DNA of 38,826 bases from Planctomycetaceae bacterium (GTDB lineage: Bacteria; Planctomycetota; Planctomycetia; Pirellulales; Pirellulaceae), in assembly GCA_002862205.1 (NCBI GenBank), contig PKCN01000354.1:1-38826 (forward strand). Reading direction: 5' to 3'. This document shows, one piece after another, positions 6,121 to 21,196 of the stretch. Under the pieces are notes generated by a model. It saw nothing but the letters and a program-made list of their open reading frames with translations. It ran no database searches and was not told where the DNA came from. The stretch's first letter is position 1. Each line of letters begins with the position of its first letter. Made by a program: the position numbers and the translations under genes.

Positions 6121-7539
6121 TCACGCGAAAATTTCCTTGATCACCTCGCCATGCACATCAGTCAGTCGAAAGTCGCGACCACTGTAGTTGAAGGTGAGTT
6201 TCTCATGATCGAGTCCGAGCAAATGCAACAAAGTCGCATGCCAGTCATGCATGTGTATTTTGTCCTGAATTGCATGATGTCCAAACTCATCGGTTTCTCC
6301 GTATGAGAACCCTGCCTTGACACCACCACCGGCGACAAACGAAGTGAACCCATAGGGATTGTGGTCGCGTCCAGTTCCATTTGCCTGTGCATAAGGTGTA
6401 CGCCCAAACTCTCCCCCCCACCACACCAGCGTATCCTCCAAAAGTCCTCGTTGTTTCAAGTCCGCCAGCAAACCAGCGATGGGCTTATCGACTTTGACCG
6501 CATGATCTGCATGTTTCTCGAGGTTTGAATGCTGGTCCCACCGGGGGTTGTTTGTATTGTCGCCATAATTGACTTGGATATATCTGACGCCTGCTTCGGA
6601 CAATCGTCGTGCCATCAGACATTGTCGGCCAAAGTCGTCCGTTTCTTTTTCCCCGATTCCATACATGTTTTGAACATGCTGGGACTCCGAAGAAAGGTCC
6701 AGAATATCAGGGACTGAATGCTGCATCCGCCACGCCAATTCATATGAGTTGATCATGGCATCCATCTCCGTATCGCCGGGATGCGAATTTTTCTGAATCG
6801 CATTGATTTTCTGCAATGCTTCGAACTGACTCATTTGCTCATTTGAGTTCAGCATTGGATTACTCAGGTTTCTGATTTTTGCATCCTTGGCCGACACGCC
6901 AGCGCGGCCAACCGCAGTACCTTGATACACGGCAGGCAGGAAAGCATTGCCAAAGTTACGTGGCCCACCATTTCCCATGGACGGCTGCAACGTCACAAAC
7001 CCGGGCAGGTTTTCACTCTCGCTGCCAAGCCCATATTGAACCCACGCTCCCACGGAAGGGCGGACAAAATTGATCGAACCCGTGTGTAGAAACAACGTTG
7101 CCGGTCCATGCGCCACACCATCGGTGTGCATTCCCTTCAAGAAACAGAGGTCATCCACATGCTGAGCGATATTCGGAAAAAGCTCGGATACGTACTGACC
7201 ACATTCTCCATACTGCTTGAATTTCCAAGGCGATTTGAAAACCCGGTGCTTTGTAATCGTTTTCGTCTTGGCGAGCACTCGAGCATCGTCAAACGTTCTT
7301 TCCTCACCATCATGCTTTTCCAACAATGGCTTGTAATCGAATGTATCTACGTGACTCGGGCCTCCCTGCATGAAGACAAAGATCACCCGTTTGGCGCGCG
7401 CGGGAAAGTGCGTCGATTTTGCAGCGAGCGGATTTCCCCCTTCGGCTTTGGCGTGGCGTTGCATCATGGATGCCGCCGCCAGATATCCAAAACCACAAGC
7501 ACTCGATTTCAATAAATTTCGTCGATTCAATCTCATCAT
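6121..7539 (-). CDS. DUF1501 protein, Tat-exported, alkaline-phosphatase-like fold
   Basis: This protein of about 472 residues belongs to the DUF1501 family, which is related to the sulfatase/alkaline phosphatase superfamily and is abundant in planctomycetes. The N-terminus has a twin-arginine signal (N-R-R-N-L-L-K) before a small hydrophobic stretch ending near 'HAKAEGG'. Family blocks follow: 'FMQGGPSHVDTFDYKP', 'FLHTGS', a 'YGDNTNNPRWDQHSN' segment, 'WWGGEFGRTPYAQ', 'GRDHNPYGF' and 'HDWHATLLHLLGLDHEKLTF'. Asp and His residues in these blocks fit metal binding, but the substrate is not known. The start is ATG 7539; an upstream TTG at 7548 is possible. It lies 18 bases after the cytochrome-type gene upstream, as usual for these pairs. 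Confidence 0.9.
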   Translation of the reverse strand: MMRLNRRNLLKSSACGFGYLAAASMMQRHAKAEGGNPLAAKSTHFPARAKRVIFVFMQGGPSHVDTFDYKPLLEKHDGEERTFDDARVLAKTKTITKHRVFKSPWKFKQYGECGQYVSELFPNIAQHVDDLCFLKGMHTDGVAHGPATLFLHTGSINFVRPSVGAWVQYGLGSESENLPGFVTLQPSMGNGGPRNFGNAFLPAVYQGTAVGRAGVSAKDAKIRNLSNPMLNSNEQMSQFEALQKINAIQKNSHPGDTEMDAMINSYELAWRMQHSVPDILDLSSESQHVQNMYGIGEKETDDFGRQCLMARRLSEAGVRYIQVNYGDNTNNPRWDQHSNLEKHADHAVKVDKPIAGLLADLKQRGLLEDTLVWWGGEFGRTPYAQANGTGRDHNPYGFTSFVAGGGVKAGFSYGETDEFGHHAIQDKIHMHDWHATLLHLLGLDHEKLTFNYSGRDFRLTDVHGEVIKEIFA

Positions 7540-7557
7540 GTCACTCAATTCTCTGGA

Positions 7558-10452
7558 TCAATCCAGATAACGAAAATCGATACACTGGAACAGCAACTGA
7601 TAGACCAACGCCCACTCGGAAGTCCCTCCAGGCTGTTCGTTTGTCACCAACAAATCCATCATCACTTGCCGCTCTTGTTCACGGGGCTCACGTCCCAAGA
7701 CTTCGGCATAAGCGCGCCTCAACATTGCATCTTTTTCCCCGGGGTGTTCTTTCTCAAGTCTTTGGGCAGCATCGGCAGCCTGCTCCATCACGAACGGCTG
7801 ATTCATCATCAGCAGCGCCTGGGAAGCGACATTACTGGCGGTGCGCAAACCACCTTGAATGTTGGGGTCGGCAAAATCAAACACTTCAAAGATCTCTGGA
7901 AGCCTGTTGCGAAAAACGGGGACATAGACGCTTCGCCTGCGGCCTTGGAACTGGTAACCGTACTCGCTGGATGTCCCGTTCTTGATTGTTGGCCCCCCCA
8001 CAGCGAGGTCCAAATTACCTGCTGCCATCAAGATTGAGTCACGGATATCCTCTGCCAACAGACGTTTGCGATCACGTCGCCAATACAAACGATTGTCGGG
8101 ATCCAAGGCTTGATCATCATCTGCCTGGCGGGTGCTTAACTGATAGGCACGCGAACTGACGATCTCTCGCACAAGTTTCTTGATTGACCATCCATTCTGG
8201 ATCAACGATGAAGCAAGATGATCCAACAGAGCAGGGTGCGTTGGTCGGTCCCCGGTAGTACCGAAATTGTCAACACTGGCAACAATTCCTCTCCCCATCG
8301 TCCAGTACCAAACACGATTTGCGATGACTCGAGCTGTCAGTGGGTTCTTTTCGTTGGCAATCCACTCTGCCAATTCCAGACGCCCACTTGAGTCGGAACC
8401 CACCCTGGGCATTCCATCCCAGGCAGCGACCTGCAATACCCCACGCGGCACTAAATCACCTTTCTGATGGGTCATCCCACGAATAGCGACGTGAATATCC
8501 GCGGGTGACTTAACATCACGTGCCGCCATTGCAACTTGCCGTTTGGGAGTGGACTTTTTGATCGCCTTGACTTCTTTTGTCAGGCGATCAACTTCAGTCT
8601 TCGCAGCAGCAACTTTCATTTTCAAAGCTTCTGCCTTTGCTTCGGCCGTAGCATCCTCAATGCCGCCTTGCTGCCGAGCGATTTCTTTTGCTGCTGGATC
8701 TGCAACCCGTGTCCAAATGATCGCATCCGCAATCACAACGCCATCATCAGTCCCTGTTGTGAACAGCTCAACACTTGAACCCCCTTTTTTGTCGAACTCA
8801 AAAACCCCAAGCGACTCCATCAATCCATCAACTGACGGAGCTTTCCGTTGATTGATCTCAACGACGGCCTCACCTTGCCTATGCTTGATTCTGTAGGGAA
8901 CATTCTTTGCCCGATTGGCACCACTGGAGTAGGACGCAAAAACTTCATACCGCCCTGACTCTGGCAGCTCTGTCTGATAAACAACCGACTTTGCCCCCTT
9001 GTCCATCTGTTCATCATGGATGTAATTGGCACCCACATACTTCGCCACGGCGGTCGAGTCCTTCCAATTACCGATGACCTCTGCATCGACGCTGTCCACG
9101 ACCACACCGCTGAGCGTTACTGGATCCACCGACTTGGTCGATTTGGCACTTTTTCCAGTCGCCTTCTTCCATACCTTGGTGGCCGCTGCGAGTTGTGCTT
9201 CAGCAACTTCAAGTTTTTCTGCAGCGGCAAGAAAAACAGCTTCTTCAGCAGGCGAGAACGGCAAATCAACCGTGTTCCAAGCAGAGACATTCGAGTGATT
9301 GAGTGAATGAGTGCTTTTGAATATTCCCGCCAACGCGTAGTAATCCCGTGTTGGGATGGGATCGAACTTGTGGTCATGACACCGCGCACAGCCAATCGTC
9401 ATGCCCAGCATGGCTTTGCCCATCGTGTCCAGCTGTTCATCAACAACATCCATCTCAAGGATATCTTTGTCCTGCATCTCATAATTTGTCGGACCCAACA
9501 TCAGGAATCCAGTCGCGACCACTTTGCGTTCGCGATCAAGCCTGTCATTGGCGGGCAGCAGATCCCCGGCGATCTGCTCTTTGAGAAATTGATCAAAGGG
9601 GAGATCTTGGTTGAACGCATTGATCACGTAATCGCGATAACGCCATGCGTCTGGAAAAAGCAGGGTACGTCCACCGCCGCTTGACTCGGCAAATCGAACC
9701 ACATCCAGCCAGTGTCTGCCCCAGCGTTCACCAAAATGATCTGACTGCAGCAAACGATCGATGAGCTTCTCTGTCGCCTTGTCAGATTTGTCTGACAGAT
9801 ATTGCTCAATCTGGGAAGGCGTTGGCGGCAGTCCGGTCAAATCGTAGGTCAATCGCCTTAGCAAGCTTTCCCTGCTTGCATCAGCGGCAGGTTCAATCCC
9901 GCTTGCTTCGAGCTTCTGCAACACAAATCGATCCATCTCATTCTTCGGCCAAGCAATTTCATCGGTCTCCGGGGCGTTTGGCTTCCTGATTGGCTGAAAT
10001 GCCCAGAACTGCTTTCCATCCGCGATCGTTGGAGCACCAGCATTTGCTGGAGTCGCCGGATCATCACTGCCACGAGGGTCGAATGCCCCAGCTCGAACCC
10101 ATGCCTGGAAAGCTTCGATCGTTTCCTTTGGCAATTTACCCCGAGGCGGCATTTCAAGACTGATGTCTTCATACCCAATCGCCTTCAAGAGGAGACTTTG
10201 GGAATCTCCGGGAACGATGACCGCACCCGAATCCCCACCTGCCTGCCAGGCTTCGCGACTATCAAGACGCAAGCCACCCTGAACCTTTTTCGGTCCATGA
10301 CAGCGAATACAATGCTGCACCAAGGCCGGACGAATTTTTTTTTCAAAGAACTCAGCAGATGCGTCCTCCGCACACACATGTTCATTCACCGACAGCGTTA
10401 ACCACTGAACCAGAAGAATGAAGACAATTGTTTTCGGAGAAATCTGCATCAT
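7558..10452 (-). CDS. Planctomycete cytochrome c protein with DUF1549, golvesin-like and DUF1553 domains
   Basis: This is a 964-residue exported protein. The signal peptide covers residues 1-28. The PSCyt1 haem domain has C-I-R-C-H at 48-52 and M-P-P-R-G at 101-105 as the likely axial Met region. DUF1549 covers about 168-380 and contains a second haem-like C-A-R-C-H at 355-359. A beta-sandwich of the golvesin/xanthan-lyase C-terminal type covers about 450-583 ('GNWKDST', 'YVGANYIHD', 'GRYEVFASYSSG', 'IADAI'). A Lys/Glu/Ala-rich helix lies near 600-645, then DUF1553 from about 690 to 940 ('NPLTARVIANRVW', 'GWSIKKLVREIV', 'QALLMMNQPF'). These proteins always travel with DUF1501 genes and are guessed to act on complex polysaccharides or in periplasmic electron transfer; no activity is proven. 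It is tightly linked to genes on both sides. Confidence 0.93.
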   Translation of the reverse strand: MMQISPKTIVFILLVQWLTLSVNEHVCAEDASAEFFEKKIRPALVQHCIRCHGPKKVQGGLRLDSREAWQAGGDSGAVIVPGDSQSLLLKAIGYEDISLEMPPRGKLPKETIEAFQAWVRAGAFDPRGSDDPATPANAGAPTIADGKQFWAFQPIRKPNAPETDEIAWPKNEMDRFVLQKLEASGIEPAADASRESLLRRLTYDLTGLPPTPSQIEQYLSDKSDKATEKLIDRLLQSDHFGERWGRHWLDVVRFAESSGGGRTLLFPDAWRYRDYVINAFNQDLPFDQFLKEQIAGDLLPANDRLDRERKVVATGFLMLGPTNYEMQDKDILEMDVVDEQLDTMGKAMLGMTIGCARCHDHKFDPIPTRDYYALAGIFKSTHSLNHSNVSAWNTVDLPFSPAEEAVFLAAAEKLEVAEAQLAAATKVWKKATGKSAKSTKSVDPVTLSGVVVDSVDAEVIGNWKDSTAVAKYVGANYIHDEQMDKGAKSVVYQTELPESGRYEVFASYSSGANRAKNVPYRIKHRQGEAVVEINQRKAPSVDGLMESLGVFEFDKKGGSSVELFTTGTDDGVVIADAIIWTRVADPAAKEIARQQGGIEDATAEAKAEALKMKVAAAKTEVDRLTKEVKAIKKSTPKRQVAMAARDVKSPADIHVAIRGMTHQKGDLVPRGVLQVAAWDGMPRVGSDSSGRLELAEWIANEKNPLTARVIANRVWYWTMGRGIVASVDNFGTTGDRPTHPALLDHLASSLIQNGWSIKKLVREIVSSRAYQLSTRQADDDQALDPDNRLYWRRDRKRLLAEDIRDSILMAAGNLDLAVGGPTIKNGTSSEYGYQFQGRRRSVYVPVFRNRLPEIFEVFDFADPNIQGGLRTASNVASQALLMMNQPFVMEQAADAAQRLEKEHPGEKDAMLRRAYAEVLGREPREQERQVMMDLLVTNEQPGGTSEWALVYQLLFQCIDFRYLD

Positions 10453-10484
10453 CGATGACTACTTTGAACGCGTGTTCAAGACCG

Positions 10485-13400
10485 TTACTGGAGGAAGTAA
10501 AACGCTTTCATGTTCAGCAGAGCATGAGCAAGATCAACCCACACCCTTTTATCCTCTTTCCCGTAGGCCTTCGCCTGAACATCAAGAAACTGCTGTAACT
10601 GCTCAATTTGCTGATCAGTGGGTACCACGCCGTGAACCCTTTCGACCATCAGCGTGATTCGTTGCTCCGCCGCCTGATCCGGCACCGCAAGACTTCTGTC
10701 AGCGATGATCCCGGCCTGTCCGATAATGAACGGATCATTCATCAAGGCAAGAGCCTGAGCTGGCACATTGGAGTTGCTGCGTCGTCCCTTGGGACCAAAG
10801 GGACTTGGCATGTCAAAGGTCAACATGAATGGATTAAGAAAGTTGCGATAGACGGACAAGTAAACGCTACGCCGGCCATTACCGTCCAAGGGACCACTTG
10901 GTCTCGCTCCGCGACCAGTCATGAACGGAGTTCGATGTGTCGCGACGCTGGGTCCAAATGGCTTTGGTTGCAAACGCCCCGACGCTACAAGAACAGCATC
11001 CCGAATTGCTTCACCAGACAATCTCCGCACCCGCATGCGATGCAGCAAGGCATTCGTTGGGTCGACGCTGGCAAGCTGTTTTTCACTTAATCCGGTGTTT
11101 GCTACGCTGGCCTGTCGATAGGTACTGGACAGCACCATCTCTTTCATCAGATGTTTGAGTGACCAACCGCTGTCAACAAGATCTGTCGCCAGCCAATCCA
11201 ATAATTCCGGATGACTGGGAGGCAATCCCTGTGGACCAAAGTCATCAACGGTGGGCACGATCCCCACGCCGAACAGATGATGCCAGAGACGATTCACAAT
11301 CACTCTGGCCGTCAGAGGATTCTCAAGACTCGCCACCCGATCAGCCAGTTCCAAACGCGTAACCGGCTCTCCTCCAAGTGCCTCAAGAAACCTCGCGGGA
11401 ACAGCTTCACCAGGATTTTGATGGCTGCCTCGGATATAGACCTGCGCATCTTCCGGGGTCCCCTGCGCCATCGCGATGACTCGGCGAACATTCGGCATAC
11501 TCTCCGCTATTTTGCCCGCCTCGCCCAGACTTGCTGCAGCCGCTGGACTAAGTTCTTCAACGCTCAAAAGCTGATTCTTCAGCAAGGCAGAAATCAATTG
11601 ATTGGACGTACCCGACTTCAGGTCCAACACCGCTTGATCGTGCAGTTCATTGAGTGCCTCGGCATTGAATTTCGACTGATCTGCCCGTTGCTTGCCTGGT
11701 GGCCCACCATCGGAAAGAACAATTTTGTCGATCGCAATCGTTGCATCGCCGGGATCGATGAACTCCAGATAGCCTTTATGACCTTTATACTTTCTCAAAT
11801 CACCTGCCAGACTCTTCCATTGCCAATTTCCCTGCGTGTCGGTTCCCTTGTTATTCATGAAAGTGCCACGAAACAGCAGAGCATTGAACTCTGCCATTTG
11901 AAAATTGTCTATCACAACACGAACTGCCGCGTTGGGCGACGCCTTCATCAACACATGAATCCGATCTGTTGTGATTTCGAAAGTTGGCGAACGAAGGATT
12001 CCCACCTGTTTCTTACCCGCGATGCCACTGTCGACCGTATCGGGCGCCAGTAATTCACCATTGGCAGCGAAGCCCAGACCAGACCCGGTGGGCAAAAACG
12101 CGAGCCCGGATGTTGTCCAGCCCTCGGGCAGTGAATCCCCCCGGAAATCAACCAGCACATTCTGGTTTGCCAGGTCATACCCGGCATCCGTCAACTCGCT
12201 CTTGATTGCCTCATGCTTTTCAACCCAACGCTGAAGACGCGATGCATCAAGCTGCTCGGCTTGGGCTGCCTTCTGCAATGACACGGCAGGGTCTACATCC
12301 GATTTGGGAGCACTCAGGGTTCGCATGGCAGCGCGGTAGTAGTCCCCTGAACGCCTGCCTTTCTCAACCAGCTGCTCGACAGACTTCAAATCATCCGCTG
12401 CGGACTGGCGCAAACGGTTAATTTTCCTCGTTGCCTCAAGACGTTTTCCAGACGGGTCTAACGGATACTCTTGCCGGCAGCTACTTTGCAAATGCGCACT
12501 CAACGCGTAATAGTCAGCGGTTGTGATTGCGTCAAATTTATGATCGTGACAACGAGCACAGGCAATGGTCAGACCAAGAAACGTTTTACCAAAAACATCG
12601 ATCTGGTTATCCATGATGTCTGCTTCATTACCAAGCACATCAGTGGGAGCGTGTGTCGCTTCGTGGAGGTACCAGAACCCCGTTCCAATGATTGATTCAT
12701 TCCATCCTTCATCTGGATTCCGCCTTGGCTCGGGCAACAGGTCTCCCGCAATATGCTCGCGAATGAACTGATCAAACGGCACGTCAGCATTGAAGGCACG
12801 AATCAAATAATCTCGATACTCATGAGCATGGCGCAGAGGGTAATCAAATTCATGACCATAGGTTTCCGCATAGCGAACAAGGTCCATCCAATGCCTCGCC
12901 CACTTTTCCCCCAGATGCGGCGACTGCAACAATTCATTGACGACATTCTCGTATGCACTCTCACTGTCGTCGTTGAGAAACCCAGCAATCTGCTCGGGTG
13001 TTGGCGGCAAACCGATCAAGTCAAAATAGACACGTCTGAGCCAAGTCCTGCGATCGGTTTCGGGAGCAGGCTGCAAACCTGAGGCTTCGATTTTCTGCAG
13101 GATAAATCGGTCCAAATCTGACTTTGGCCACTCCCGATTCTCGACCCATGGCAACTCAGGCTTGGCAATAGGTCGCCAGCTCCAATGATCCCGGTAGCGT
13201 TGGTCAAGGTTGAATCCCTTTGCGGGTGGTGTTACAGATTTTTTGGCGGCACGAGGATCCGGCGCACCCATTTTCACCCACTTTTCCAACGTCGCAATGT
13301 CCTTATCGGACAATTTTGATCGCGGAGGCATTGCGGTGACTTTGTCCTCTTGATATCGGACAGCATCGATCACAAGACTCTCATCAAGGTTGCCTGGAAT

Positions 13401-13721
13401 GATCGCAGGGCCAGATTCTCCGCCCGTCATCCAGCCCCATTTCGAATCCAGCAATAACTCCGCTTCCACTTCATCCGCACCCTCGGAATGACATTCGTAG
13501 CAGTGTTCTACAAAAATGGGGCGCACACTGGACTCAAAGAACTCGATCTGCTCGGCACTAGGGGCTTCTTCTGCTATGGCAGTGAGCGAGCCAGACAAAA
13601 ACAGACAGACGACGGCACTCGCGACCCAACCCGCACCGGCAAGCGGTCGGTTGCGTCGAGGAATGACGCCCCGATCCCAAAGAATCAATTTCAGCTTGCA
13701 GACTTGACTGGAACAGATCAT
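10485..13721 (-). CDS. Planctomycete cytochrome c protein with DUF1549 and DUF1553 domains
   Basis: This 1078-residue paralogue of the next gene has a signal/anchor helix at about 30-50 and a haem motif C-Y-E-C-H at 74-78, followed by 'AMPPRSKL'. DUF1549 contains 'RHWMDLVRYAET' and a second C-A-R-C-H motif in 'TIACARCHDHKFDAITT'. In the middle, instead of a golvesin-like domain, it has a different beta-rich module ('VLVDFRGDSLPEGW' to 'IDKIVLSDGG'), perhaps a carbohydrate-binding-like sandwich. The C-terminus is DUF1553 ('NPLTARVIVNRLWHHLFG', 'ALALMNDPF'). The start overlaps the stop of the DUF1501 gene upstream as ATGA. Its Shine-Dalgarno sequence is a full 12-base complement of the usual 16S 3' end. 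This suggests strong translational coupling and near-equal production of the two proteins. Confidence 0.93.
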   Translation of the reverse strand: MICSSQVCKLKLILWDRGVIPRRNRPLAGAGWVASAVVCLFLSGSLTAIAEEAPSAEQIEFFESSVRPIFVEHCYECHSEGADEVEAELLLDSKWGWMTGGESGPAIIPGNLDESLVIDAVRYQEDKVTAMPPRSKLSDKDIATLEKWVKMGAPDPRAAKKSVTPPAKGFNLDQRYRDHWSWRPIAKPELPWVENREWPKSDLDRFILQKIEASGLQPAPETDRRTWLRRVYFDLIGLPPTPEQIAGFLNDDSESAYENVVNELLQSPHLGEKWARHWMDLVRYAETYGHEFDYPLRHAHEYRDYLIRAFNADVPFDQFIREHIAGDLLPEPRRNPDEGWNESIIGTGFWYLHEATHAPTDVLGNEADIMDNQIDVFGKTFLGLTIACARCHDHKFDAITTADYYALSAHLQSSCRQEYPLDPSGKRLEATRKINRLRQSAADDLKSVEQLVEKGRRSGDYYRAAMRTLSAPKSDVDPAVSLQKAAQAEQLDASRLQRWVEKHEAIKSELTDAGYDLANQNVLVDFRGDSLPEGWTTSGLAFLPTGSGLGFAANGELLAPDTVDSGIAGKKQVGILRSPTFEITTDRIHVLMKASPNAAVRVVIDNFQMAEFNALLFRGTFMNNKGTDTQGNWQWKSLAGDLRKYKGHKGYLEFIDPGDATIAIDKIVLSDGGPPGKQRADQSKFNAEALNELHDQAVLDLKSGTSNQLISALLKNQLLSVEELSPAAAASLGEAGKIAESMPNVRRVIAMAQGTPEDAQVYIRGSHQNPGEAVPARFLEALGGEPVTRLELADRVASLENPLTARVIVNRLWHHLFGVGIVPTVDDFGPQGLPPSHPELLDWLATDLVDSGWSLKHLMKEMVLSSTYRQASVANTGLSEKQLASVDPTNALLHRMRVRRLSGEAIRDAVLVASGRLQPKPFGPSVATHRTPFMTGRGARPSGPLDGNGRRSVYLSVYRNFLNPFMLTFDMPSPFGPKGRRSNSNVPAQALALMNDPFIIGQAGIIADRSLAVPDQAAEQRITLMVERVHGVVPTDQQIEQLQQFLDVQAKAYGKEDKRVWVDLAHALLNMKAFYFLQ

Positions 13722-15160
13722 GCGATCACCTCCTTGATCAGATTTCCGTGAACATCAGTCAATCGCATGTCACGACCGCTGAAACGGAAAGTACTTTTTG
13801 TGTGATCTACGCCAAGCAGATGAAGCATGGTTGCATGCAGATCGTGTATCTCAAACCTGTCTTCCACGGCACGATACCCCCATTCATCAGTAGCTCCTAC
13901 CGACGCGCCGCCTTTGACTCCGCCACCTGCCATCCAGACGGTAAACCCAAAGGGATTGTGATCCCGCCCATTGGACCCTTGTGCAAAAGGTGTCCGACCA
14001 AATTCACCAGCCCAAACAACCAGCGTCGACTCAAACAGACCTGTCCGTTTGAGGTCTTTAATGAGAGCAGCAATTGGCTGATCCACCGTCCTGCAATTTT
14101 TATTGTGCCCATCAATCAGTCCGCCATGCTGATCCCAACGATCACCATTCCCGCCGGGGCACGTCAACTCAATGAATCTGACACCACGTTCAACCAAACG
14201 CCTTGCCAGCAGGCATTGCATCCCGAAGGTTTTCGTATTATTGAAATCTGATTCCAGACCATAGAGTTTTTTCGTCTCAGCGGATTCGCCGCTCAAGTCC
14301 ATCAGTTCGGGAACAGCCGTTTGCATTTCAAACGCTGTTTCATAATTCTGAATCGCGGCTTCGACTTCAGGGTCAGCCCCAAGACCTCCATTGGTCTGCT
14401 GGTCAAATGCACGAATCAAGTCGAGTTTGGTTTTCTGCAATTGGGAATTGTTTTCACTGGGTTTGATATTTGCCAATGGCTGGGCTTTGGGAAGGAATAC
14501 CGATCCTTGATATGCCGATGGCAGGAACCCGGATCCAAAACAGTCCAACCCGCCCGGCGGAATCAAGCCACCATTGAGCACAACGAAACCGGGCAGTTCC
14601 TGATTCTCGCTGCCAAGTCCATATCCAAACCAGGCGCCCATGCTGGGTTTGCCCTGAAGCCCATTCCCCGTGTGCAGGAAATAGTTGGCTGAGGTATGCT
14701 CGGAAAACTTTGACGTCATCGACTTGACCATCGCCAAGTCATCAGAGACTTCAGAGAGATGGGGAAACAGATCACTGATCCAATGTCCGGCCTCTCCGCG
14801 CTGAGAAAATTTCCACTGGCTTTTAAGAACTTTTCCTACCGCATCAAACTGCGTGGGGGCCAATTTACCGATCACCTTCCTCGGGTCCTGACCATCGTAC
14901 TTTTCAAGTTGAGGCTTGTAATCAAACGTATCGACGTGCGATGGCCCACCATCCATGTAAAGGAAGATGACATTTTTGGCAGGTCCTGGAAAATGAGACG
15001 GCTTTGGATCCCATGGGCCAGACGCAAGAGCCGACGAAGATCTCCCCGAGAGTGTGCTCAACGCCAACGCGCCAAAGCCGTTAGCACACCACTGAAGCAT
15101 CTCGCGACGACTTGTGGGACGAGAACCAAAACGACCACAGTGATGCTGCAACTTCTTCAT
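13718..15160 (-). CDS. DUF1501 protein, Tat-exported, alkaline-phosphatase-like fold
   Basis: This 480-residue DUF1501 protein appears to be the first gene of the reverse-strand operon. The Tat-type signal is S-R-R-E-M-L-Q (17-23) followed by an Ala/Leu-rich segment ending near 'SALASG'. Family blocks are 'FLYMDGGPSHVDTFDYKP', 'FLHTGNGLQGKPSMGAWFGYGLG', 'GDRWDQHGGLIDGH', 'VVWAGEFGRTPFAQ', 'GRDHNPFGF' and 'IHDLHATMLHLLGVDH'. It is a clear paralogue of the DUF1501 protein at 6121-7539. Compared with that protein it carries Ser/Gly-rich changes after the signal and a shorter loop after 'LNGG'. It overlaps the downstream cytochrome-type gene by four bases. The 350 bases upstream probably hold the operon promoter. 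Substrate and activity are unknown. Confidence 0.92.
   Translation of the reverse strand: MKKLQHHCGRFGSRPTSRREMLQWCANGFGALALSTLSGRSSSALASGPWDPKPSHFPGPAKNVIFLYMDGGPSHVDTFDYKPQLEKYDGQDPRKVIGKLAPTQFDAVGKVLKSQWKFSQRGEAGHWISDLFPHLSEVSDDLAMVKSMTSKFSEHTSANYFLHTGNGLQGKPSMGAWFGYGLGSENQELPGFVVLNGGLIPPGGLDCFGSGFLPSAYQGSVFLPKAQPLANIKPSENNSQLQKTKLDLIRAFDQQTNGGLGADPEVEAAIQNYETAFEMQTAVPELMDLSGESAETKKLYGLESDFNNTKTFGMQCLLARRLVERGVRFIELTCPGGNGDRWDQHGGLIDGHNKNCRTVDQPIAALIKDLKRTGLFESTLVVWAGEFGRTPFAQGSNGRDHNPFGFTVWMAGGGVKGGASVGATDEWGYRAVEDRFEIHDLHATMLHLLGVDHTKSTFRFSGRDMRLTDVHGNLIKEVIA
13723..13734 (-). promoter_or_regulatory. Perfect Shine-Dalgarno sequence inside the upstream gene's last codons
   Basis: On the reverse strand the sequence AAGGAGGTGATC lies immediately before GC-ATG of the gene starting at 13721. 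It is the complete complement of the common bacterial 16S rRNA 3' end (GATCACCTCCTT). The same bases encode the last Lys-Glu-Val-Ile of the DUF1501 protein. The core GGAGG is 7 bases from the ATG, an ideal spacing. Confidence 0.85.
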
Positions 15161-15516
15161 GTTCTAATTTCAATCAGAGTCGAATCAGAGGATAAAATTC
15201 ATGAGAATCAAACGAAACAGCAGACAGGGTTCACCATCGTGGCCATGAACGAATGAATCCGTTCGCATGATGGCCCGGTGGGGCATGGTGGATTTTCCGC
15301 AAGTCTTGTTTCACTGCCGATTCACAGAACCCCAGTTTAGCATGAGAGGGCAGCTTTTTGGCCGACTCATGCCGCTCAAAACCGGCCGATTTGTGATGCT
15401 TGTCGAATTCGGGGCAATTACGCAGAGCGTTTGGCCGCTATGCGGTCGAAGACCGGCCCCAAGACCATGCAGATATCCGTACTCAGCAACCGACAGACCA
15501 TTTTGATGGGCTGATT
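15161..15516. other. 356-base intergenic region upstream of the cytochrome/DUF1501 operon
   Basis: It lies between the end of the TPR gene and the start of the DUF1501 gene, both on the reverse strand, so it should contain the operon promoter. I find no convincing -35/-10 or -24/-12 pair by eye. A short forward open frame here (15267-15506) has no ribosome-binding site and no recognisable composition. Confidence 0.4.
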
Positions 15517-16287
15517 TTACTTATCTGTTGACAAGTAAGCGGCATAAACGCGTGCCACATCACCCATGTAACTGAAAGACGCATCTTTGGCAGACAAATC
15601 CATGTAGCGTTTTGCTGTAGCGCGATCGCCGGCTGCGTCTGCGTACAGCCCCAGATAAAAATTACCGTAAAAGTCAGCAGACTCGCGTCCCCGCGTGTTG
15701 GTTGGAAAGCTCTCCATTTTTTTGATCACTTTGTCGGTCTCTCCAGTGCTAAGCATTTGCAGCACCTCTTCCATGGGAGCTCTGGGGTCGTTGGGAGCAG
15801 GCAGAACGACGGACTTTGCCTTATCGAATGACTCTGCTTTGGCCACACACAAAAAGTGCCACGCTGCATTTTCCACGTCATTGGGGTTAACCCGACGATG
15901 CACCTCAAACTGCTCGACTCCTGCTTTGTATTTTCGAGCAAAATACAGTGCGATCCCTCGCTGCCAAAGTCCTGCCAAAGCCTCCGGCTGCAGCTTAAGA
16001 TAACGATCAAACAATTCCGCAGCTTGTTTCGATTTTCCACTCCTCAAATAAACGTCTCCGGCCAAGCGAAGATTGCCAGCATCGTTGGGGGACTGCTTGA
16101 GCAGCTTGTCAACCGCCTCAATGGCCTTGGCCGATTCTCCAGCTTGCAAAGCACGAATTGCTGTGACACGCAGAGTCGCTGGTTCCACCTTGTTGGTCCC
16201 TTTCCTGGCTGATTCATCCTGCGCATCAATGTCTGGCGAACTGACAATCACGAGCAGGAAACAAAAGACTGTAAAAAAGGGTTTCAT
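15517..16287 (-). CDS. Secreted tetratricopeptide-repeat protein
   Basis: This 256-residue protein has a clean signal peptide (residues 1-22, cleavage near 'DIDAQ-DES'). The start ATG at 16287 has AAGGAG 9 bases upstream. Residues about 35-185 are helical repeats in TPR style: 'ALQAGESAKAIEAVDKLLKQSPNDAGNL'-like units, 'LAGDVYLRSGKSKQAAELFDRYLKLQPEA' and 'GIALYFARKYKAGVEQFEVHRRVNPND' (quoted only as short family-like blocks). It probably serves as a periplasmic scaffold. Similar planctomycete proteins with 'GLYADAAGD...' near the C-terminus are conserved but uncharacterised. It lies 68 bases downstream of the chorismate-lyase-like gene on the same strand. It could be co-transcribed but has its own good ribosome-binding site. 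Confidence 0.85.
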   Translation of the reverse strand: MKPFFTVFCFLLVIVSSPDIDAQDESARKGTNKVEPATLRVTAIRALQAGESAKAIEAVDKLLKQSPNDAGNLRLAGDVYLRSGKSKQAAELFDRYLKLQPEALAGLWQRGIALYFARKYKAGVEQFEVHRRVNPNDVENAAWHFLCVAKAESFDKAKSVVLPAPNDPRAPMEEVLQMLSTGETDKVIKKMESFPTNTRGRESADFYGNFYLGLYADAAGDRATAKRYMDLSAKDASFSYMGDVARVYAAYLSTDK

Positions 16288-16355: not shown

Positions 16356-16928
16356 TCAGTCTTCCAACAAGGATGTCGGTGAAACAATTTCCAACAACTC
16401 AATCGCCGGTGCTTTATCACAATAGATCAGCGCCGTTCGTCCATATACTTGCTTGTCTGTGTCCAGTTGCATCAATTCGGCGAGACTCGAGCCTGGCTGC
16501 ACTTCCCACAAACCACAAAGTTGCACTTCCCGCAACACATCATGCTCAATCAGGACACGCCCCAATGGCGTCGTTTGACTTTCAATCTGCTTCCAGACTT
16601 CATCATCCAGCGTCCGCGTATTGAGCCTTACAATGCCGTATTGGACAATTCGTCCAGTCTCCTCGGTTACCAGGGTAATTTCTCTGGAATACCATCCCTG
16701 AGTGCGGTGGCACCGATGCACAACAACGTTGACTTTTTCGCTGTAATGTGACTCAACCGTCACTGTCATATGAGCGTGATGGTCGAGCAACGACTCATAA
16801 GGGTCCGGTACCTTGGCAACCGACTGAAACTCACCCAATTGTGAATGGCCTACCGGCTCACAATAGAACTCGTCCAGCAAATTCCGGATATCGATGCGTG
16901 AATCATCGGAGGAAGCCACTTCGCTCAT
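16356..16928 (-). CDS. Chorismate-lyase-like protein (DUF98/UbiC fold)
   Basis: This protein of 190 residues (ATG 16928; a GTG at 16940 would add four) looks cytoplasmic. The central part follows the DUF98/chorismate pyruvate-lyase pattern: 'LLDHHAHMTVTVESHY' near 47-62, 'WYSREITLV' with Arg82, 'GRIVQYGIVRLN', 'TPLGRVLIEHDVLR' at 120-133, 'YGRTALI', and 'PAIELLEIVSP' with Glu180. I would align Arg82, Leu122 and Glu180 with the active-site Arg, Leu and Glu of UbiC. Members of the fold release pyruvate from chorismate to give 4-hydroxybenzoate (UbiC; Rv2949c in mycobacteria). It is third in an operon with a polyprenyl synthase fusion and a terpene cyclase, which supports a role in making an aromatic head group. 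Some members of the fold are only ligand-binding, so activity is not certain. Confidence 0.7.
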   Translation of the reverse strand: MSEVASSDDSRIDIRNLLDEFYCEPVGHSQLGEFQSVAKVPDPYESLLDHHAHMTVTVESHYSEKVNVVVHRCHRTQGWYSREITLVTEETGRIVQYGIVRLNTRTLDDEVWKQIESQTTPLGRVLIEHDVLREVQLCGLWEVQPGSSLAELMQLDTDKQVYGRTALIYCDKAPAIELLEIVSPTSLLED

Positions 16929-16952
16929 AGGTTCACTCACTATTCCTGCCGC

Positions 16953-18809
16953 TCACCCCAAAGGTGCCGTGACACCGAGAGTGACAACGGAAGGTGTGGG
17001 CATCTCCGGTCTCTCCAATACAGTATCCACAAGAAAATAAAACAGGCGACGAAGTTCTTCTACATCAATTTCATCAGCGACCTTTTCAGCTCTTGCCTGA
17101 TGTTTATCAACAAGTTTCAACGCAGTTTCAAAAACATCTGCCTGTTCATAGAGTTTCCGCACCTGAAAGAGTCGCTCAGCGTCTGAAAGACCACAGTCGG
17201 ACTCTGCCAAATCAAGCAATCGCGTGGCATCTTTTTCTGGCAGGCCTTGCAACGCCAATGCCCACAACAAAGTAGGGCGACCACCGAAAACATCTCCCCC
17301 GGCCGACATTTTGTTTGAATCATCACCAATCCAATCACCCAAATCGTTGAGTATTTGAAAGGCGACCCCCATATTCCGGCTGAAAGTACGAATGGCTGTT
17401 CGGTATGGCGTTGCGTCTCCCGCCATCCGAACCCCACTGAGCAAGGCGGCTTCAAAAGCAGGCGATGTCTTCAGTGCATAGACTTTGAGTGCATCAAGCG
17501 GAGTCAACCGGCGATCTTTTCCGTCCCGCCAGATCAATTCAGATCCCTGCCCTTCGGCAAGCCGCATGTGGGCTGCAGCCAAGGCATCCAGAACGTCCAC
17601 TCGCGCCTCGCTCGGCACATCATCCTGATCTTCGTTGCGGCTTAACAATCGGTACCCAAGCCCGATCAAGTAGTCACCAACATTAATGGCAGTAGGAATA
17701 CCGAACCTGCGGTGAACTGCAGGTTGTCCATAGCGGAATGCATCATCATCTTCGATGTCATCATGCACAAGACTCGCCTTGTGAAACGTCTCGATGCTCA
17801 TGGCAGCGCGACGGACTGAAATCGGAAATTCGGAAATTGCAGTTTCCGCCGCAGGACCTGTCGCATGTCCACCTGTCATCGCATCATACGCAGCGAGGGT
17901 GATAAACGGCCGCGAGTGTTTTCCACCACGACTCAGGAAATCGTAGGCGATGTGTTCGGTTGCCGAAATCGCATCCATCTCCTCGATGTCAGTCACACTG
18001 ACTGCATTTTCACCCAACTCTGCTTGAGTACGCACGCGAGGTGCGAGGACGTCCATGGTCTGTGACTTGAACAGATCACTGGCAGCACGCATTAGATGAA
18101 CGTAGCTTCGTGTCACGCTTTGAGCGGGCTGATAAGGTGTTCGGATCATCTCATTGACCCATGGCTCATCCACCTTTGTGTTTCGGCAATCGCTGCTCAA
18201 CAGAGGGACGGCCATGCAAGGAATCCCAGCCAACAACACTTTGTCGATCGCCTTTTCCAGGACGTTCAAGCACGCGACACCGACAACCGCATCAACGTAG
18301 CCACCGACGATGATCTTCATCACCACTGGCGATCCTTCAGCTACCAGTACCCGGTATCCCATGTCTTCGGCCAAGCCACGAAAATCCGCAATGCTGCAGG
18401 CACCACACTCTTTACAATTCATTCCGAATTGATCGTATTCAGCAGGGCAGCCTTCAGCATGTTTGAGACAGTGCGGCAAAAGAAACAGACGGCGTTCGGG
18501 TGGAACGGCCGACAACGATTCTTTCCAGAATTCGCTGCTGATCATGACCATCATCCAGCCCAGATAACCTTCGGGCAAATCCGCCTCCTCCAAAGCTCGA
18601 CGGGCTACTTGCTCCATCTCATCCTTGGTCATCGGAGCGGACCGATCGATCCGGGCCGCGATATCAGCGCAGCGTGCTCGCAAGCTCTCTCGTAATTCAA
18701 AAGTTTCGGGCACGTCTTTGAGATGGCTCGTTTTCCGACGTGGCGTTCGGCCTTCGGAAGTCGTTTCCGACTTCGGCGCCGTGCCACTAGTGCTGAGTCC
18801 GCTGGACAA
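16953..18809 (-). CDS. DUF116-polyprenyl diphosphate synthase fusion protein
   Basis: This is a 618-residue fusion. Residues about 60-245 are a DUF116 domain with a Cys cluster (Cys114, 121, 132, 135, 138, 180, 198, 208) in blocks such as 'LPHCLKHAEGC', 'NCKECGACSI', 'VVGVACLNVLEKA' and 'PLLSSDCRNTKVD'. The spacing suggests an Fe-S cluster or zinc. Residues about 280-600 are a trans-isoprenyl diphosphate synthase: 'GGKHSRP' at 295-301, first Asp-rich motif D-D-I-E-D at 350-354, and second motif N-D-L-G-D at 488-492, with Asn instead of the first Asp. The synthase should condense isopentenyl diphosphate with an allylic primer. The start is TTG 18809, two bases after the cyclase stop, with GAGG 7 bases upstream. 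The fusion and the Cys cluster suggest redox control or a second reaction. Confidence 0.88.
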   Translation of the reverse strand: MSSGLSTSGTAPKSETTSEGRTPRRKTSHLKDVPETFELRESLRARCADIAARIDRSAPMTKDEMEQVARRALEEADLPEGYLGWMMVMISSEFWKESLSAVPPERRLFLLPHCLKHAEGCPAEYDQFGMNCKECGACSIADFRGLAEDMGYRVLVAEGSPVVMKIIVGGYVDAVVGVACLNVLEKAIDKVLLAGIPCMAVPLLSSDCRNTKVDEPWVNEMIRTPYQPAQSVTRSYVHLMRAASDLFKSQTMDVLAPRVRTQAELGENAVSVTDIEEMDAISATEHIAYDFLSRGGKHSRPFITLAAYDAMTGGHATGPAAETAISEFPISVRRAAMSIETFHKASLVHDDIEDDDAFRYGQPAVHRRFGIPTAINVGDYLIGLGYRLLSRNEDQDDVPSEARVDVLDALAAAHMRLAEGQGSELIWRDGKDRRLTPLDALKVYALKTSPAFEAALLSGVRMAGDATPYRTAIRTFSRNMGVAFQILNDLGDWIGDDSNKMSAGGDVFGGRPTLLWALALQGLPEKDATRLLDLAESDCGLSDAERLFQVRKLYEQADVFETALKLVDKHQARAEKVADEIDVEELRRLFYFLVDTVLERPEMPTPSVVTLGVTAPLG

Positions 18810-18811
18810 AC

Positions 18812-20830
18812 CTATACCTCAGGGAGCGTTTGTGTGGGGTTCTGTAAAGGATTCGTTTCGTCTGGTGACCCATTTCGGGCCGGTTGGTCTGCCGCAAGCT
18901 GAAGGTATTTCCCCAACGCTGCCGTGGTGAAGATCAAAGGATACAAGCGTTCGTGGTACCAAAGCTTGGCAAAATAAAAACCGATGGGCCAAGGTAACCG
19001 GTGCCGCTTTTCTTCAAAGCTCTTCAACAGGAATTCGACGCCGGAGATTATAGCCTGACTCGTCGCTTTGGTCCCACCATGCTGAGGTACAGTTTGTGCG
19101 TTGAGACCACCCAATCGGTCTGTTTTGTCTCGTTTTGTATCTTCCTTGCCGGTTTCAGGGGCTGATTTTTTCCCGGAAAGTGCAACGGTTGCCAATGCTT
19201 CGACCGCCAACGCCGTTTCTTCGACGCTGCTGACGACGTCAAATTCCCCGAACTGTTTTTTTTTTAGCCAAAGGGCGACAGAACCGCCTCCACCCCAGCC
19301 ACCGTCATCATTTTGGTTCTCCACCAGATATTGACACCCAGCACCCAATGCCTGCGAAGAAAGACTTCCAGAGGCTGCTGCAAGCAAAACCCGCGATGTT
19401 CCATAGACCGGATTTGACTCATCCACACGGTCCTGATTGCCAAACCAGAGGGGCAACCAGGATCCGTCAGGCTCCTGGTTTTTCTCCAGAAACCGGGTGC
19501 CCGAGTTTACCATCCCGACCGCTTTCGCATCAGGAAACTCGTTGACGGTCAAAGCCCGCAACGCGTGCGCGGTCAGGTCATTACTACTGCGATCAAAAGG
19601 CAGTTTGCCCCAACCGCGACAAAAGGTCGGCCAACCACCATCACGATTTTGCAGTTTCAACAACCAAGCTCGCCCCGCAGCAATCGCGGCGTCACACCTC
19701 TGTTGTTGTGTCGCATCCAATGCAGGCTTCATGTACGCGAGAGCCAAAATCGCAGCAGGAGTATCGTCACTATCGGGCACTGCGCCACTCAGATCACTCC
19801 AACCCCAACCACCAGGCTCAGCTCCGGTAAACGGATGACGCACCTCATGCTGACATCCTAAATGCCAATCCAGCAAGTCGGGTGTGCACCAGGCACGATC
19901 GTCTGCTGGATCAGCCGCGAGGGCGTTGATCGAAAGAGAAGTCACCCACGTTGCCAGATTAGTATCGATTGGCCAACTGCCATCCTCATTCATCGAATTC
20001 ACAAGAAATTCAAGACCTCGTCGAGACACATTGTGCTCGGCCCGCTTTGTCGCAGCAAGGCTCATGACCACAAAGGAGGTGAGAGGAGTTGCTTCTAAAT
20101 ATCCTCCGCTTTGCGGTTGCATCTTTTCCAGCACCCTCATGCTGCGACCAACCGCAGCCGCCCGGACCAACCTCATTGGAAAGAAAGCTTTCGGTCCATG
20201 AAAATGACGAGCCTGGCCAATCGCAACCAGCGCAGGGATCGCGTAACTGACCACCGGCATCTGTAACAAGCGGTACATCGACTGCGGAAAGACAGCCGCT
20301 TCAAACGGCAAGGCCGCGACCCTATTCCAAGGGACCAAACCTGCGATTGCCATGTTGGCCAGAATGGGGATAACAAACGTCTTGTCTTTTCCATAACGCT
20401 CTTTCAAAGCATCCAACTTGCCCAACCGCTCGACGTACCGTTCCAACGCAAGGACGGCCTCCTTGGCAAGCGTGCTGCCGATCGCCTGACCGGCCAAAGC
20501 AGAGGCAGCTAAAACGAGGTAGCTGGTGGCAATGTTGGAATGACTGCGATCCGTGTCACCAAACCCCCCGTCTTCGTTCTGCTGATGTTGCAGGTACTGA
20601 ATTCCAGATGCGATGCATTTCCTGATCTGTTGGTCGGCACTGCAGTCGCTCTGCTGCGAACTCGCCTTGTGAATCAAGACTGCCGACATCGCACTGACGG
20701 CCGTTGCAGTGCTCAAGGCGGAAGGAGAAAGCGTCCCTGTCCAGCGATGCCCATCACTTCTTTCGGCCAACAATTCACCGCGCAGTTGATCAAGCGTGAC
20801 TCTAGCGCGTTCGCGGATGCTTGGTTTCAT
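18812..20830 (-). CDS. Class II terpene cyclase, squalene-hopene cyclase-like
   Basis: This 672-residue protein is built of alpha-alpha toroid prenyltransferase/squalene-oxidase repeats. The protonating Asp motif D-S-D-D is at 353-356 in 'VPDSDDTPAAILAL', matching DxDD of class II cyclases. QW-type repeats are visible: 'EDGGFG' (86-91), 'EDGSWP' (282-287), 'RDGGWPTF' (396-403), 'PDGSWLPLW' (454-462) and 'DDGGWGG' (508-514). The C-terminus 'YHERLYPLIFTTAALGKY' resembles the end of squalene-hopene cyclases. A charged, probably disordered insert of about 35 residues lies near 554-589. The length is close to bacterial SHC. ATG 20830 is the chosen start; an in-frame extension to 20899 adds an unconvincing N-terminus. 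Next to an isoprenyl synthase, the substrate may be squalene or a linear polyprenyl chain. Confidence 0.88.
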   Translation of the reverse strand: MKPSIRERARVTLDQLRGELLAERSDGHRWTGTLSPSALSTATAVSAMSAVLIHKASSQQSDCSADQQIRKCIASGIQYLQHQQNEDGGFGDTDRSHSNIATSYLVLAASALAGQAIGSTLAKEAVLALERYVERLGKLDALKERYGKDKTFVIPILANMAIAGLVPWNRVAALPFEAAVFPQSMYRLLQMPVVSYAIPALVAIGQARHFHGPKAFFPMRLVRAAAVGRSMRVLEKMQPQSGGYLEATPLTSFVVMSLAATKRAEHNVSRRGLEFLVNSMNEDGSWPIDTNLATWVTSLSINALAADPADDRAWCTPDLLDWHLGCQHEVRHPFTGAEPGGWGWSDLSGAVPDSDDTPAAILALAYMKPALDATQQQRCDAAIAAGRAWLLKLQNRDGGWPTFCRGWGKLPFDRSSNDLTAHALRALTVNEFPDAKAVGMVNSGTRFLEKNQEPDGSWLPLWFGNQDRVDESNPVYGTSRVLLAAASGSLSSQALGAGCQYLVENQNDDGGWGGGGSVALWLKKKQFGEFDVVSSVEETALAVEALATVALSGKKSAPETGKEDTKRDKTDRLGGLNAQTVPQHGGTKATSQAIISGVEFLLKSFEEKRHRLPWPIGFYFAKLWYHERLYPLIFTTAALGKYLQLAADQPARNGSPDETNPLQNPTQTLPEV

Positions 20831-21196
20831 TTGCAGTGCTTTTCCATGATTTTTCACCCTTGCCGCACATGCCAGACCAAGCATCACTCCGCAGGTCACG
20901 CACGAATGGCGTTCAAACGCTTGTCACTTTCGCTTCTCTGAACGCCTTGTCAAGCTCTGAACGCCTTTTCGAGAAGCGTCAGCTGCCCCTTTGCAAATCC
21001 CAACACCTGTGCTGCCCCGAGGCCGCACAGGCACAAACAGCAGATTCTGATATTTACCGATGCCGGATTGTATCGCCGCTACAAGTGGGCGACTATCTTC
21101 TGTAAAGCCCAAACATTGATGGCAGGAATTTCTAACCCAAAGCCTCCGTCTCTCATACGAGCCAGCGGTCCTAACACAAATTGGCGGTAATAAGTG
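20831..21196. other. 366-base divergent intergenic region
   Basis: It lies between the terpene operon (-) and the isomerase-like gene (+), so it should hold both promoters. A short direct repeat CTGAACGCCTT occurs near 20938 and 20956. I see no clear promoter pair or palindrome. Confidence 0.4.

Follow-up and report, generated by a model that had tools for sequence, protein, structure and literature searches.

What is made by a planctomycete operon in which a class II terpene cyclase (CYC), a trans-polyprenyl diphosphate synthase fused to a DUF116 domain (IPPS) and a protein with a chorismate-lyase/DUF98 fold (P3) are encoded side by side? The question is raised by contig PKCN01000354.1 (assembly GCA_002862205.1) of a Planctomycetaceae bacterium, of which the whole stretch of 38,826 nucleotides that was analysed is called here the window. 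On balance, we lean towards a reading in which this operon forms the heart of a pathway for a cyclised polyprenoid, conserved across a large part of Planctomycetota and possibly including a chorismate-derived aromatic part. Judging from gene content, the operon is itself one piece of a larger, conserved gene set present in many Planctomycetota.

Organisation and conservation of the operon

The three genes are tightly packed on the minus strand, with gaps of 2 bases between CYC and IPPS and of 12 bases between IPPS and P3. CYC (18812..20830), whose product matches Pfam SQHop_cyclase_C/N over the cut-off and belongs to the squalene-cyclase superfamily with a DXDD motif, encodes 672 amino acids from its ATG, a possible alternative start being the GTG located upstream at 20899. 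IPPS (16953..18809) encodes 618 amino acids, likewise with Pfam matches over the cut-off, and starts with TTG. GAGG, a possible ribosome-binding site read in the sequence (18817..18820, minus strand), lies among the final codons of CYC and precedes this TTG by 7 bases. P3 (16356..16940) encodes 194 amino acids and was assigned by an AlphaFold2 model and Foldseek; it starts with GTG, and an alternative in-frame ATG four codons further on would give an IPPS-P3 gap of 24 bases. A preliminary description of this DNA had reported the tight packing, the TTG start and the GAGG inside the preceding gene, and all of these are confirmed.

The order of the operon is conserved in relatives, above chance. 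We examined 80 named loci, which are the best 80 of 570 confirmed ones. Of the 71 loci with at least 1.8 kb of room upstream of IPPS, 60 have CYC directly upstream, at no more than 700 bases; P3 follows IPPS directly, within 1 kb, in 66 of the 69 loci with room on that side. The adjacency that had been noted for the three genes is found again in relatives. The titles of these loci include Rhodopirellula, Rubripirellula, Stieleria, Pirellula, Gemmata, Singulisphaera and Isosphaera. The genome of the window is itself Rhodopirellula/Rubripirellula-like, its nearest named relatives (about 90% identity for IPPS) being mostly metagenome-assembled genomes so labelled.

At the scale of the phylum, CYC was found in 46 of 199 genomes (E up to 1e-30, no more than 6 candidates being scored in each genome), the full fusion in 48 (according to our reading of the matches listed, some being counted from two pieces) and both together in 45. 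P3 was detected in 112 of 119 genomes of the window's own family. Furthermore, we retrieved forty hand-picked loci, 20 of them centred on IPPS in genomes from across the phylum and 20 on P3 in the window's family: CYC was found in 17 of the former and 16 of the latter.

The fusion synthase and the cyclase

The IPPS protein matches Pfam DUF116 at residues 76-222 (135 bits, cut-off 25) and polyprenyl_synt at residues 286-536 (141 bits, cut-off 27). Its first Asp-rich motif, DDIED, was read in the sequence at residues 350-354 (17748..17762, minus strand), and the corresponding DDxxD is present in all 80 named synthases. The pattern used for the second Asp-rich motif matched 58 of the 80 named relatives, always as NDxxD, and missed 22; among 36 others, DDxxD is found as well. 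All 80 named synthases also carry Ala at position -5 and Phe at position -8 relative to the first motif. Residues near this motif serve as a guide to chain length, for which this Ala and Phe provide no more than a hint. As for the DUF116 domain, its structural model (predicted local distance difference test, pLDDT, 76) has no PDB match at E up to 0.001, the best being 0.059, and no title dealing with a prenyl pathway was found among those seen for DUF116. One genome encodes a second copy of the fusion (L076, G223:C1:6745763-6747457), and the 20 kb retrieved there contain no cyclase.

CYC matches Pfam SQHop_cyclase_C with 107 bits (cut-off 26). Its DSDD, the putative catalytic acid motif (residues 353-356; 19763..19774, minus strand), was aligned by phmmer to the DVDD of squalene-hopene cyclase 1gsz, and D353, D355 and D356 are invariant in the 35 rows of the A10 alignment. 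DXDD is present in 65 of 65 named cyclase relatives and in 32 of 33 proteins of the other set. The families that had been assigned to the cyclase and to the fused synthase therefore stand, with Pfam domains over their cut-offs and both DSDD and DDIED in place.

The substrate of CYC is a more delicate question. The protein scores 78.1 bits with the hopene-cyclase model TIGR01507, for which the cut-off is 431.1, and 104 bits with TIGR01787 (cut-off 323); on the former score, a hopene cyclase proper was rejected. PF00494, the squalene/phytoene synthase family, was found in 35 of the 46 CYC genomes and was undetected in 11 (5 of 26 among those of good quality). One genome without a PF00494 match (G175) shows 99% completeness and carries the full cluster. 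Since 11 of the 46 CYC genomes have no such match, squalene is, as far as gene content tells, unlikely to be the general substrate of CYC, unless another route exists.

A larger conserved module

In eight loci outside the class of the window (L080-L087), CYC and IPPS are found together with six other genes: a GcvH-like protein, a CobW GTPase, a small CxC protein, a ferredoxin (FDX, about 300 amino acids with two Cys clusters), a radical SAM protein (rSAM) and a toroid protein (TOR, about 300 amino acids, PF00432). Seven of the eight genes are present in L077. Moreover, L096 and L101, which belong to the same family as the window, each carry GcvH, FDX, rSAM, CYC, IPPS and P3 in one locus. Among 20 CYC-bearing genomes, rSAM, FDX and TOR were each found in all 20, mostly as a single copy (G243 has a second, weaker rSAM hit, and FDX is matched weakly in G243 and G284). 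Of the 20, 18 have the GcvH paralogue, G284 and G243 showing only a weaker, canonical-looking GcvH. In the genome of the window, rSAM, FDX, TOR and GcvH are located on other contigs (C338, C92, C126 and C5, respectively). In that genome, as in L101, a PQQ propeller and a HemN-like radical SAM protein are encoded next to GcvH; an ABC ATPase gene comes directly after that of TOR.

The lipoyl-site Lys is invariant in 12 of 12 GcvH-like proteins, and the module rSAM has CxxxCxxC plus further conserved Cys. The HpnH model gives 34-48 bits with three neighbouring rSAM proteins, the cut-off being 225, and an HpnH-type side-chain enzyme was rejected on this ground. A protein-prenylation reading of TOR was provisionally set aside, as the zinc ligands that protein prenyltransferases carry seem, at their accepted positions, not to be kept in the alignment. 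In L081, a cysteine-desulfurase-like gene of the DndA/IscS type (15088-16248, minus strand) is located immediately ahead of the GcvH-like gene.

P3 and a second gene cluster

P3 alone has no Pfam or NCBIfam match at E 0.1. Its AlphaFold2 model (pLDDT 88) is closest, according to Foldseek, to AF1396/DUF98 2nwi (E 3.3e-7). DUF98 structures occupy ranks 1-3, and UbiC 1jd3 is at rank 5 (E 4.5e-5). P3 is thus UbiC/DUF98-like by its predicted fold, which agrees with the chorismate-lyase-like call made earlier. The Foldseek matches further include UTRA-type effector domains from the GntR regulators PhnF and DasR, with E from 4e-5, PhnF ranking above UbiC. At the sequence level, only 4 of 43 P3 relatives reach E 1 or better with PF01947, the lowest value being 0.013, and the protein of the window has no match. 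R86 and E184 are invariant in the 43 rows of the A9 alignment, and R105 is present in at least 90% of them. R86 and E184 may be the counterparts of the Arg and Glu of the UbiC active site. In L105 (9682-11271), the P3 homologue lies inside a 530-amino-acid open frame, possibly a fusion, and other P3 matches are found in long frames too.

Seventeen P3 loci were fetched away from the CYC-IPPS setting. In nine of them (L298-L304, L312 and L313, all outside the class of the window), P3 belongs to a cluster of its own of 7 to 14 labelled genes. The 6 to 13 genes that accompany P3 are drawn from those for a sodium symporter, AMP-binding-like and aldehyde-dehydrogenase-like proteins, an iron alcohol dehydrogenase, a PQQ propeller and a HemN/HutW-like radical SAM protein, as well as a halogenase-like FAD oxidoreductase, a glycosyltransferase, a 4HBT thioesterase, an unknown protein, a PaaK-like ligase, an ABC ATPase and an FtsX permease; LuxE and LuxC are labels of our own in this cluster rather than matches to families. 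Two additional loci (L307 and L308) carry five genes of this second cluster including P3. Furthermore, both clusters are interleaved in seven named loci (L241, L242, L245, L247, L258, L263 and the Gemmata-labelled L285). That an aromatic acid may be attached to the terpenoid is weakly suggested by P3 and this cluster. P3 is located 3.2 kb from a UbiA gene, on the same strand, in L298 (G225:C1:1637267-1641741), and the two are about 14 kb apart in G304 (C2).

Proposed pathway and alternative explanations

Co-location, co-occurrence and the existence of genomes without squalene synthase argue for a synthase that feeds the cyclase. IPPS would likely make a polyprenyl diphosphate whose chain is probably at least C20, and CYC would likely protonate and cyclise this chain or a derivative of it rather than squalene. 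Plausibly, rSAM would then modify the product together with the dicluster ferredoxin and the lipoyl-type GcvH-like carrier, the CobW GTPase and the small CxC protein taking part in some classes. More tentatively, in lineages like that of the window, P3 might cleave chorismate, or act on a similar acid, to provide an aromatic building block. Enzymes of the second cluster (the CoA-ligase, thioesterase, reductases, FAD oxidoreductase and glycosyltransferase) might process this block, and the product might leave via the ABC/FtsX exporter.

Several points weigh against this pathway, starting with the fact that its product, substrate and activities are deduced from genes. CYC is not directly upstream of IPPS in 11 of the 71 named loci with room; in three of these (L275, L284 and L285), it is about 1 kb away, behind a gene on the opposite strand. 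The co-occurrence of CYC and IPPS (Fisher p = 7e-40) is calculated ignoring shared ancestry, and incomplete genomes may conceal genes. All 20 genomes used to count rSAM, FDX, TOR and GcvH carry CYC, the set including no CYC-negative control. Within 10 kb on either side of the 80 named loci, rSAM is found in 19, TOR in 11, FDX in 9 and GcvH in 8; hence, the compact form of the module is a minority in Pirellulaceae, and close relatives of the window carry these genes at other places, like the window's own genome. With regard to the substrate, the genome of the window has three PF00494 hits, so that squalene could be used there. With regard to the aromatic part, 4 of the 20 own-family P3 loci lack CYC and IPPS, and 6 of the 17 P3 loci away from CYC-IPPS (L305, L306, L309-L311 and L314) lack second-cluster genes besides P3. 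P3 was undetected in 22 of the 46 CYC genomes with a profile made mostly of own-family rows, which may miss diverged copies; the cyclase module can therefore exist without P3. UbiA enzymes are encoded by all 46 CYC genomes, yet the nearest to CYC on the same contig, among the matches listed, lies about 97 kb away (G269). The preliminary description had proposed a cyclised prenyl-aromatic or quinone-like lipid, or another terpenoid distinct from plain ubiquinone and plain hopanoids, and this interpretation is partly supported. The TIGR01507 score and the 11 genomes without detected PF00494 leave room for a product other than a plain hopanoid; the joining to an aromatic group is a weaker supposition, given the distance of UbiA and the genomes in which P3 was undetected.

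Could CYC be a diverged squalene cyclase that makes a hopanoid-like triterpene, with IPPS supplying farnesyl or geranylgeranyl diphosphate and with P3 and the other genes being neighbours from other pathways? Its superfamily, its status as the sole strong PF13243 match of its genome (79 bits, the next one having 39), the PF00494 genes of this genome and of most CYC genomes, and the planctomycete hopanoids cited as reported in the available text of PMC8303584 are in keeping with this explanation. We nevertheless consider it improbable: both cyclase models score far below their cut-offs, PF00494 was undetected in 11 CYC genomes, the HpnH model fits the neighbouring rSAM proteins poorly, and a dedicated synthase beside CYC would be unexpected if squalene were used. 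It is also conceivable, if somewhat unlikely, that two separate pathways are co-located in some lineages by gene order alone, one making a cyclic terpenoid (CYC, IPPS, TOR, rSAM, FDX and GcvH) and the other an aromatic or acyl product with P3. The way in which the 17 P3 loci are divided (nine with their own cluster, two with five genes of it and six with neither) and the CYC genomes without detected P3 would fit such a separation, whereas the seven interleaved loci and the frequent adjacency of P3 and IPPS suggest a shared product or shared regulation.

The role of P3 can be questioned in itself, as its fold is shared with UTRA effector domains and the protein might be a small-ligand-binding regulator or a lipid-binding protein rather than an enzyme. 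The rank of PhnF above UbiC points in this direction; the DUF98 structures at the top of the ranking, a length of 194 amino acids that is too short for an added DNA-binding domain, and the invariance of R86 and E184, which would be in line with a correspondence to UbiC active-site residues, all make a non-enzymatic role doubtful. On balance, we favour a cyclised-polyprenoid pathway that is probably fed by IPPS. Its fullest version, which we regard as a distinctly unlikely one, would be a planctomycete signature lipid in which a cyclised polyprenyl chain, radical-modified on or with a lipoyl-type carrier, bears a chorismate-derived aromatic head and is glycosylated and exported. If true, this lipid would represent a new class of cyclic meroterpenoid or quinone-like membrane lipid involving some fifteen genes.

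Other features of the window

Downstream of P3, a gene on the minus strand (15517..16287) encodes a tetratricopeptide repeat (TPR) protein, assigned from the Pfam match of its homologue in L209. It corresponds to cluster 6, which is present in 15 of the 80 named loci; this gene recurs after P3 in close relatives, yet it is probably outside the pathway. Positions 6121-15160 carry two tandem pairs of large genes, and one gene of each pair resembles the DUF1501 protein of L209. An Rfam scan of the window gave nothing above the gathering threshold.

Significance and comparison with known systems

The gene set is apparently undescribed: no description of it was met in the literature searched, including the accessible text of PMC12078418, PMC8303584, PMC8692599 and PMC7378531, subscription journals being poorly covered. 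Planctomycete clusters that combine polyprenyl synthetases and terpene cyclases are presented, in the available part of PMC8303584, as early carotenoid or hopanoid genes; some of these loci may be something else. The main text of the essentiality study of Planctopirus limnophila (PMC10632474), in its available part, contains none of the terms squalene, polyprenyl, radical SAM, isopren and terpen. A widely conserved lipid-type pathway that is single-copy in the tested genomes and for which no assigned product was found would reveal a gap in the knowledge of planctomycete membranes. Moreover, it would offer a candidate biomarker that does not depend on hopanoids or sterols, and the orphan domain DUF116 would gain a defined biochemical context.

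CYC shares with squalene-hopene cyclase (1gsz) its superfamily, full length, DXDD and QW-type repeats. It differs by a score far under the hopene-cyclase cut-off, by its link to a prenyl diphosphate synthase gene and by its occurrence in genomes without detected squalene/phytoene synthase. The module rSAM resembles HpnH, NirJ and AhbC in being a radical SAM protein with CxxxCxxC and further conserved Cys, and differs from them by NCBIfam scores that are, among those listed, far below the cut-offs. P3 shares its predicted fold, and possibly a conserved Arg and Glu, with UbiC and the DUF98/Rv2949c-like proteins (PF01947), from which its sequence has strongly diverged.

In merosterol-type pathways, the class II cyclase MstE acts on a prenylated benzoate, and the idea of such a cyclase working on a prenylated benzoate is what the operon would have in common with them. 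The name MstE is absent from the ten PDB sequences matched by CYC. Unlike the merosterol pathway, the operon has no UbiA near CYC among the matches listed, and its set includes extra genes for rSAM, ferredoxin, GcvH-like, CobW and toroid proteins. The formation of C35 sesquarterpenes in Bacillus relies on a cyclase resembling squalene-hopene cyclase that acts on a polyprenoid other than squalene. The operon has other partner genes than this system, no search having been aimed at the Bacillus partner enzyme; the two would share the use of a cyclase of this type on a non-squalene polyprenoid.

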